49,945 nucleotides of DNA from an uncultured Opitutales bacterium (GTDB lineage: Bacteria; Verrucomicrobiota; Verrucomicrobiia; Opitutales; Intestinicryptomonadaceae): positions 1 to 49,945 of the forward strand of contig CALXNZ010000019.1 in the NCBI GenBank assembly GCA_944389885.1, given 5' to 3'. A program made the position numbers and the translations under genes. Shown in pieces: positions 17,741-21,217 of the stretch. The notes beneath the pieces were generated by a model that worked only from the letters and a program-made list of their open reading frames with translations, was not told where the DNA came from and searched no databases. Position 1 is the stretch's first letter; each line of letters begins with the position of its first letter.

Positions 17741-19138
17741 CTACTTTCTTCTGCGGCAAGCTGCAAAAGCGATAACAAACAAACCTAAAATCGCCGCGCA
17801 AGTAGAAGATTCAGGAATTGCGGGGCCGGCTACGACAAAATTTGCAACACTTTCGGGAGACCAATCTACATTGTTGCCTTCGGAATCTTGAAACAGCCTT
17901 ATGAAGGCGGCCTGTGCGGCTTCGTCGCTTTCATAACCTGCCATTACTATGGTGGCGCCTTCTCTAATAAGAACGAGGTCGCTTGCCGAAGCAACAGTAG
18001 AAGAGTCTGCTTCAAAAAGAATGTTAACTTGGTCTGTAAGCGTTAAAGTTATTCCATCTGTAAGTTCCAAAAGGCCTCCGTCTTTTATGTCTATAGCCCC
18101 GCCCGTCAGTATAGAGTCCACAGTGAGTTTCGCCGAAACTTCGTGGGCTGTTATCGTGAAAGTATCACCCGCCCCGAGCATTAACCCTTTATTAATGGAA
18201 CTATCTCTATCGTTGCTGAAAATTTCGCCGCTACCCAAGAGCGTATTTATATTTTCTCCCGCGCTTGCGATGTCAGAAACATTAAATGATACTCCGTTTA
18301 CCGTAGCACCCCTAAAATCTGTGGATTTTAAAGTATTTCTTGCGCTGTCAATCCAAACATAAGGATAATCAGATCGTACAGTAATTTTCGCATCTTTGGC
18401 ACTCAATCCGTCGATGATATTTCCGTTCGAGGTAAATGCAAAGCCGTTGGGTGTATTTACCTCAATATTGTCCATGTTGACATTTTTTACGTCCTTGTTG
18501 AAATCTATTGCGGCGCCTATATTGGCAACGCTAATCTTGGCGGAAGTTAGATTTATATTTTCGGCAACACTGTCATCGCCGCCGAGTCCGCCAATGCGCA
18601 AACCGTATCCCGCATGAGTTTCGTCCGTGCTCTGCTGAATTTCCACATTGGAAAAATTTAAGTTCTTTACGGATCCTAACAAGTTGACCGCTACATACTC
18701 ATATCCATTCGGATTTTCTGCCGTATGCGAAAACTTAGAACCTGAAAAATCCACATTTTCCAATCTTGAATCGCTATATAAAAGGAATGCACTAAGGCTT
18801 GAATAAAGTGAACTTGCAAAGTAAGTGCTATTTGAAAAATTGCTGTTTTTAACCGTCGAATTTGCAATGGTAAGAGCTGAAAACGCCAATGATCCGGGAT
18901 ACTTTACGGGATTTCTGCCGCTGCTGTCTTTTGCGTCAACACCCGAAGTTTTGTTGGAATAGTCAAGCCCGTCCCACGTATTGTTCTCAAAGATAGTGAA
19001 ACCTTTACTATCCGTATATATGCCATTTTCATCGTAAGAGTAGCCCCCTCCGTCTCCAGTTGGATATTGCCATTCTTGTGCAAAAGAAATTGCCGCAAAC
19101 GAAAAAATAGTTATGCAGATTGTCAGAAGTTTTTTCAT
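17741..19138 (-). CDS. Secreted PEP-CTERM surface protein with pentapeptide-like repeats
   Basis: A 465-residue protein. Signal peptide MKKLLTICITIFSFAAISFA is followed by an aromatic/Gly-rich start. Residues ~90-290 carry degenerate beta-helix repeats of the type xVKNxNFSNSxx (for example STVKNSNFSNSTYF, SRLENVDFSGSKF, GSVKNLNFSNVEI, KNVNMDNIEV). A C-terminal sorting tail reads IPESSTCAAILGLFV, a hydrophobic stretch, then CRRRK. Such tails direct PEP-CTERM proteins to an exosortase that cleaves and releases or anchors them; the motif here is PESST rather than PEP. No exosortase is encoded in the window. The body matches no catalytic family I know. It has a strong promoter, its own terminator, and a 3' tag shared with the next gene. 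Confidence 0.8.
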   Translation of the reverse strand: MKKLLTICITIFSFAAISFAQEWQYPTGDGGGYSYDENGIYTDSKGFTIFENNTWDGLDYSNKTSGVDAKDSSGRNPVKYPGSLAFSALTIANSTVKNSNFSNSTYFASSLYSSLSAFLLYSDSRLENVDFSGSKFSHTAENPNGYEYVAVNLLGSVKNLNFSNVEIQQSTDETHAGYGLRIGGLGGDDSVAENINLTSAKISVANIGAAIDFNKDVKNVNMDNIEVNTPNGFAFTSNGNIIDGLSAKDAKITVRSDYPYVWIDSARNTLKSTDFRGATVNGVSFNVSDIASAGENINTLLGSGEIFSNDRDSSINKGLMLGAGDTFTITAHEVSAKLTVDSILTGGAIDIKDGGLLELTDGITLTLTDQVNILFEADSSTVASASDLVLIREGATIVMAGYESDEAAQAAFIRLFQDSEGNNVDWSPESVANFVVAGPAIPESSTCAAILGLFVIAFAACRRRK

Positions 19139-19602: not shown

Positions 19603-21072
19603 CTACTTTCTTTTGCGGTAAATTGCAAAAGCGATAACAAACAAGCCGAAAATCGCCGCGCAAGTAGAGGATTCAGGAATTTGAGTTCCCAGGTTAAATG
19701 AAATCGAGCCGTCCTCTCCGTAATTAAGATCGGTAGTCGACCATTCCTGGTTGCTTGAGTCAACAACAGTAAGAGCGGTATTGTTTTCTTTCATTGAAGC
19801 CAACACTACGCTTGTATTGTCGCCAAAAACAGAATTTAAATCGAGATAATTTGGATCTCCCGCAGAAAAATCAGAAGACGATATCAGGGTCAACGTGTCG
19901 AATTTAGAGCCTTGCGTCATGGTGAGTTGGGCTTGCCCATCGGCAAGCAAAGCCGTTTCATTTAATTCAACGACCAACTTATTTATCGAGAAATCATTCG
20001 AAAACGCCACCTTGCTGTCTTTTGTAATTACAACGACATTGAGATCCTGTATCTCAAAAGCTTGGCCTTCGGCGGCCACAAAAGCCTGGCTCGAGTTTCC
20101 AATATAAAGAGTCTTGGTTCCGAGCAGAGAACAATCCGACGTTACTCTATTGCCTCCGGATATTACTCCTGCTATGTTAATATTGCTTCCGTCCCCGATT
20201 AAAGTAATATTTGTTCCGTTCGCGCTGCCGCCCTCGCCGGAATAACCGCCATACACATCGCCGAGTATGCTTCCGCCGCTGATTGTAATATTTGTGGAAC
20301 CCAAAATCTTGCCGGCAGTATCCCCGGCAACACCGCCGCCGTGGACGTTTCTATCTATTGTGCCGCCTGTTATATTGACATAAACATTCCCTTCAACAGT
20401 GCCGCCGTAGTTCGTCCCGGCATACACGTTTGAATATGTATTTTCCTCATAGGTTATGTGGCCTCCCATTATATTGAGATGCGTATCGCCCTTTATTATC
20501 GCGCCTTGCTGGGTAGTAATATAGCCGTAGATTGTCGGCTGCGAGGCCCCAGAATCGTTCGAGCCTATATTCAAGGTGTTGTCGCCGTAAATTACAACCA
20601 TTGGATCTGTCACCGCGTATTGTCCCAATCCTCCCAATATATTGCAATCTGCCGTCGTCTGGGTGCCCTTGCCAAGCACGCCGCCATTGATATTCATGGC
20701 AACATTTCCGTAAACGTTTGTTCCCACAACGGTTTGACCGAATATCTTTGTCTGAATCGTCCCCGAATTTACGTTTAACGTGATTGCATCGGCAGTCTTA
20801 TCTATAACGTTTGCACCGTCCCAATTATCGGTATAAACATCTCCCCCTGCGTTTAAGTTCAGGCTACCCTATATAGTATAAGGCGAATCTGAATCGCTAC
20901 CATTTACGTTTACCGTAATTTTCCCGCTTGTTGTTTCACCCGGCTGTACGATATTATAATCGGACACCGGTTCGGTTATATTTACGATAACGTCTCCATT
21001 TTGGGCCATTACAGTTCCCGCAAACACGGGAATTAATGAAACCGTATATAACAATGATTTTTTCATATTCAT
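19603..21072 (-). pseudogene. PEP-CTERM beta-helix surface protein interrupted by an in-frame TAG
   Basis: One minus-strand reading frame runs from ATG 21072 to the TAG at 19603, broken only by a TAG at codon 68. Before it lies a signal peptide (MKKSLLYTVSLIPVFAGTVMA) and a beta-rich start. After it 421 sense codons continue in the same frame with no other stop. These hold Gly/Asn-rich beta-helix repeats (NVAMNINGGVLGKG, NVYVNITGGTIDRNVHGG, NITISGGSILGDVYGGY) and end in the PEP-CTERM tail IPESSTCAAIFGLFV...RKRK. The 5' half alone would be a 67-residue secreted stub. The 3' half could start only at a GTG at 20727, without a signal peptide. The ATG at 21072 has GGGG 6 bases upstream. A recent nonsense mutation, sequencing error or readthrough all remain possible. 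Confidence 0.7.
20869..20871 (-). other. In-frame amber codon splitting the second PEP-CTERM gene
   Basis: The context is ATA TAG GGT, between PYTI and GSLNLNAGG. TAG is a genuine terminator elsewhere in the window (rnpA, the VC0807-like gene, the first PEP-CTERM gene), so general amber reassignment is excluded. Confidence 0.8.
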
Positions 21073-21116: not shown

Positions 21117-21169
21117 GGGTCCTTGTCTATACAAATATTCTAAAAAAGTTTATCCTGTAATGAGCTCTA

Positions 21170-21217
21170 CAATACTATGATGCTGAGACATGGAAATATA
21201 GCATCTGTATAGTATTG
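21170..21217. repeat. Inverted repeat upstream of the second PEP-CTERM gene
   Basis: CAATACTATGATGC (21170-21183) is repeated inverted at 21201-21217 with a 3-base insertion (GCATC-TGT-ATAGTATTG); the loop is 17 bases. No T-run follows, so a terminator is unlikely. It could be an operator pair or an RNA hairpin. Confidence 0.5.

Follow-up and report, generated by a model that had tools for sequence, protein, structure and literature searches.

A PEP-CTERM-type surface protein gene interrupted by one nonsense codon in a gut-type Opitutales bacterium, and independent breakage of its orthologues in two congeners

RESULTS

The interrupted gene and its neighbor

The window (the entire 49,945-nt stretch of DNA that was analyzed) is contig C19 of genome G000, an assembly of 2.2 Mb in 27 contigs that is 96% complete. 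Its relatives are Opitutales genomes, such as CALXLN010000071.1 (a metagenome-assembled genome from an uncultured Opitutales bacterium), and all of the sequences compared are draft or metagenome-type assemblies. The locus contains the following features.

19603-21072, minus strand: interrupted PEP-CTERM-type gene of 490 codons, stops included (translation; full-length orthologues)
20869-20871, minus strand: in-frame TAG at codon 68 (sequence; orthologue alignment)
19606-20868, minus strand: 421 open codons 3' of the TAG, comprising a beta-solenoid-like body and the C-terminal tail (translation; AlphaFold2)
21004-21072, minus strand: signal peptide MNMKKSLLYTVSLIPVFAGTVMA, with an approximate boundary (sequence, judged by eye)
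19606-19680, minus strand: C-terminal sorting tail IPESSTCAAIFGLFVIAFAIYRKRK, with the PES variant of PEP (translation; comparison of tails)
17741-19138, minus strand: intact neighboring gene of 465 amino acids with a signal peptide and a near-identical PES tail (translation)

The interrupted frame reads from 21072 to 19603 on the minus strand, begins with M-N-M-K-K, and has a TAG at 19603-19605 as its terminal stop. Translation of this strand confirms the original prediction of a single TAG at codon 68 followed by 421 open codons in the same frame. Because both flanks of this TAG align with orthologues over the whole length, at 71 to 77% identity, a chance open reading frame is ruled out, and the aligned copies that hold the position of codon 68 have a sense codon there. 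By translation and comparison with orthologues, a frame that is conserved in relatives is disrupted in the window copy.

The signal peptide and the PEP-CTERM tail had both been predicted to be kept. The former is, and the latter is kept only in a variant spelling, Pro-Glu-Ser in place of Pro-Glu-Pro, to which generic PEP-CTERM models give no score; the motif is PEP in the three aligned orthologues. The variant was considered as a sign of decay and rejected: the intact neighbor and a third G000 gene, likewise intact, also end in PES tails, and since two intact genes of the same genome spell the tail in this way, PES represents lineage variation. The tails of the neighbor (17741-19138) and of the interrupted gene (19603-21072) are 79% identical, and these adjoining genes may have come by their common, unusual tail via tail duplication or conversion.

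No convincing family was found in Pfam or NCBIfam for the body of the protein, and defense-system models gave no match. Its AlphaFold2 model (mean pLDDT of 80.8) consists almost entirely of beta strands, with a C-terminal helix at 400 to 420. Foldseek comparison with solved structures returned no significant PDB match (best E value, 0.23), and the weak matches of the model include beta-helical autotransporters. G000 contains two exosortase genes (PF09721 matches above the cutoff), and, from its signal peptide, its sorting-type tail, and these two genes, the predicted product is best classed as a surface protein of the PEP-CTERM type. The gene belongs to a set of about 30 PEP-CTERM surface genes.

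Independent lesions in the orthologues

Four copies of the gene, including that of the window, occur among 19 genomes of the family. The G013 copy (77% identity) is open apart from a TAA at codon 6, and that in G007 (72 to 81% identity; on a 4.2-kb contig of a genome that is 80% complete) has a TAA at codon 58 and a later frameshift of one base. The fourth, from another genus (G014, 71% identity), is intact but shorter, with some 115 residues missing from its N-terminal part; in this orthologue (L056; G014:C40, 6988-8103), the core follows the signal peptide directly. Flanking genes differ from genome to genome: a glycoside hydrolase and rpsA in the window, a GDSL lipase and an RNA methyltransferase in G013, and GH95-like and sulfatase-like genes (both named by eye) in G014.

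The three lesions lie in different places, and that of the window also differs in kind (TAG, as opposed to TAA in the other two), indicating that they are independent. Each of the two congeners with a full-length orthologue therefore holds it in an independently broken form, a finding that is new here. This independence makes a sequence error less likely. Were the window TAG a consensus or assembly error, the population would carry a sense codon and the gene would be intact. A single base position decides between TAG and sense, and the short contig and incomplete genome that hold the G007 copy would also suit such an error, but the same gene has different early stops in two other genomes, and of the 74 other PEP-CTERM genes surveyed, only 1 has a comparable single nonsense lesion. 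We regard this alternative as unlikely.

That survey covered 79 PEP-CTERM tails in six genomes, of which 5 were cut by contig ends and 74 were scored, with signal peptides judged visually and from a simple hydropathy criterion. About 13 of these 74 surveyed genes of the genus, roughly one in six, have no intact start or frame. Early nonsense codons in two of two other full-length orthologues differ from their incidence in the survey (1 of 74; Fisher exact test, P = 0.001) and from that of lesions of any type (13 of 74; P = 0.04), in tests that involve small numbers, nonindependent genes, and categories set after looking at the data.

Age of the lesions

Synonymous sites are saturated between the copies, which renders branch-wise dN/dS unusable, and omega is about 0.03, indicating that the gene has long been under strong purifying selection. 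When neutral decay of the 421 codons is simulated without indels, the chance that no further stop arises is 16% at 5% divergence; when one indel is added for every ten substitutions, the chance is 5% at 2% divergence. Under this model, neutral decay past some 2 to 5% divergence would probably have brought another stop or a frameshift. Amino acid changes unique to the window copy show no excess against those in H+-PPase and rpsA (Fisher exact test, P = 0.48), and accelerated evolution of this copy was rejected on these grounds. Taken together, the simulation and the lack of excess change indicate that each lesion is young relative to the species split, and the simulation supports the earlier suggestion that the window lesion is recent (below about 2 to 5% divergence).

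Young and different lesions in all three full-length copies are unexpected under rare, permanent loss. With three of three copies freshly and differently broken, either OFF alleles are common in the population or the stops are tolerated; the three young lesions suggest that this gene commonly occurs as an OFF allele.

The TAG as a probable functional stop

As originally predicted, the TAG does not signal a change of the genetic code: TAG terminates 10 of the 35 genes in the window, prfA/RF1 is encoded in G000, and no tRNA with a CUA anticodon occurs among 40 tRNA genes, a set that may be incomplete, as the genome is. Recoding of TAG and a suppressor tRNA were both rejected because RF1 is present, no CUA tRNA was found among the 40, TAG is used normally, and the position of the stop is not conserved.

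Tolerance, another possibility that had been raised, would require that the stop be read through or suppressed, giving a little full-length protein. The frame 3' of the stop is intact in both the window and G013, as readthrough would allow, but the stops (TAG, TAA, and TAA at codons 68, 6, and 58) stand in different contexts, RF1 is encoded, the 40 tRNA genes include no suppressor, and the G007 copy carries a frameshift in addition. Because the orthologue stops differ in kind and position and have no common context, readthrough is disfavored, and we consider it very improbable. It is scarcely credible that a separate protein begins after the stop by internal initiation: an in-frame GTG start is available at 20727, but starts beyond the TAG are not followed by a signal peptide, such that the product could not reach an exosortase, and conservation runs on across the stop.

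No switching element found at the interrupted gene

On/off variation had been put forward as a possible outcome of the interruption; it is plausible for the gene family as a whole, but no switching element was found at the interrupted gene itself. Its vicinity contains no run of seven or more G or C, no homopolymer tract, and no tandem repeat, and a homopolymer or tandem-repeat switch was accordingly rejected. No invertible segment was found at the gene. A silent cassette feeding an expressed copy was also rejected, there being no close paralogue in G000 (best other match, 36%). Upstream of the gene lies one further feature.

About 21158-21217, minus strand: imperfect short-loop hairpin with arms CAATACTAT/ATAGTATTG and GATGCT/AGCATC (fold energy z = -2.0)

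The hairpin is situated about 90 to 140 nt upstream of the start and is present in a single copy among the fetched loci.

Likely ON/OFF states of PEP-CTERM genes in the genus

G000 contains three further broken or truncated PEP-CTERM genes (L198, L203, and L178, on G000:C10, C6, and C2, respectively). In G013, a run of 11 G lies inside the signal peptide of L070 (G013:C87), which is out of frame. In G009, a 16-nt tandem repeat directly follows the signal peptide of L119 (G009:C34, near 880-950), whose PEP-CTERM body is out of frame; this repeat is likely a repeat-number switch. The tracts of L070 and L119 are of a type classically linked to switching.

The promoters of these genes in G009 have a common architecture. 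At least 18 PEP-CTERM genes have a promoter of the form TTGACA-N8-10-G8-10-TAnnAT(TTG), with a total spacer of 17 to 19 bp.

G009 poly-G promoter loci: L126-L128, L140, L210-L216, L219, L220, L223, L226, L227, and L229

The entire G009 genome has 25 runs of at least nine G, of which 18 stand 33 to 53 nt before the ATG start of a PEP-CTERM gene and 22 fall within the 17- to 19-bp spacer of a TTGACA...TAnnAT-type promoter. Poly-G spacers are typical of phase variation, and the set is likely a poly-G phase-variable surface regulon. G000 has only three matches to nine G genome-wide, none of which is at the interrupted gene.

Poly-G or poly-C tracts of 8 to 16 nt also occur in or beside the early coding regions of PEP-CTERM genes, namely L070, L123 (G009:C31), L241 (G003:C1), and L230 and L234 (both G001:C1). 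In another PEP-CTERM gene, L087 (G001:C1:1486180-1488610), an in-frame TAG at codon 11 of the signal peptide is followed by 505 open codons, and the promoter spacer carries a run of 16 G.

The family is thus prone to ON/OFF states in congeners, and the interrupted gene is off by substitution. Recurrent OFF states of PEP-CTERM surface proteins are likely in the genus.

DISCUSSION

The gene, which is chromosomal and encodes a PEP-CTERM surface protein, is probably a recent nonsense allele that has lost its function. From a normal start, translation would end after 67 residues, such that neither the beta-solenoid body of 421 residues nor the membrane tail would be made or exported, and presumably no full-length protein is produced. 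Loss of one abundant surface protein had been named as a possible outcome; the loss is supported, and nothing was found in support of the abundance. We infer that this surface protein is broken repeatedly because selection on it is weak or fluctuates, for example through phage or host pressure or through its cost.

One version of the null-allele explanation, compatible with it and tentatively entertained here, is that the loss is reversible or frequency dependent, with the sequenced lineage OFF and ON alleles persisting in other strains or returning by recombination. In its favor, the three full-length orthologues were all caught soon after independent breakage in an otherwise conserved group, the PEP-CTERM family of congeners has poly-G promoter spacers, and the L070 and L119 genes carry their G11 tract and 16-nt repeat in and after the signal peptide. 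Against it, switching by nonsense substitution is not fast, and neither a repeat tract nor an invertible segment nor a close donor copy was found for the interrupted gene. It is possible, if doubtful, that the genus maintains its entire repertoire of PEP-CTERM surface proteins in an ON/OFF manner, through poly-G promoter spacers, signal-peptide tracts, and recurrent null alleles, and that this gene is one OFF member, with orthologues that are repeatedly off in different species.

Taken by itself, the interrupted gene is a recent null allele of an ordinary sort, and its value is as a pointer, both to independent breakage of this surface protein in two sister species and to the phase-variation signatures of its family in congeners. 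With strain-level reads, the retention or loss of particular surface proteins by gut Verrucomicrobiota becomes directly testable.

Homopolymer phase variation is documented in the phylum for an exopolysaccharide gene of Akkermansia (PMC13055324) and was proposed from the Akkermansia genome (PMC3048395), and invertons have been reported near PEP-CTERM genes (PMC11892184). Among the papers searched, none describes phase variation of PEP-CTERM genes in Opitutales. Amuc_1413 of Akkermansia muciniphila (PMC13055324; PMC3048395) resembles the interrupted gene in belonging to the same phylum, in being surface related, and in having OFF alleles among sequenced genomes; it differs in varying through a homopolymer, whereas the interrupted gene lacks such a tract and its lesion is a substitution as opposed to slippage.

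With PEP-CTERM/exosortase substrates (TIGR02595 and PF07589), the gene shares a signal peptide, a long repetitive secreted body, a C-terminal motif followed by a hydrophobic helix and a basic end, and the presence of exosortases in the genome, but its motif is PES, unscored by generic models, and its frame is interrupted by a stop. The gene is also like single-lesion bacterial pseudogenes and null alleles of surface proteins in having one nonsense codon in a frame that is otherwise open. Unlike these, its orthologues in congeners are also independently and recently broken.
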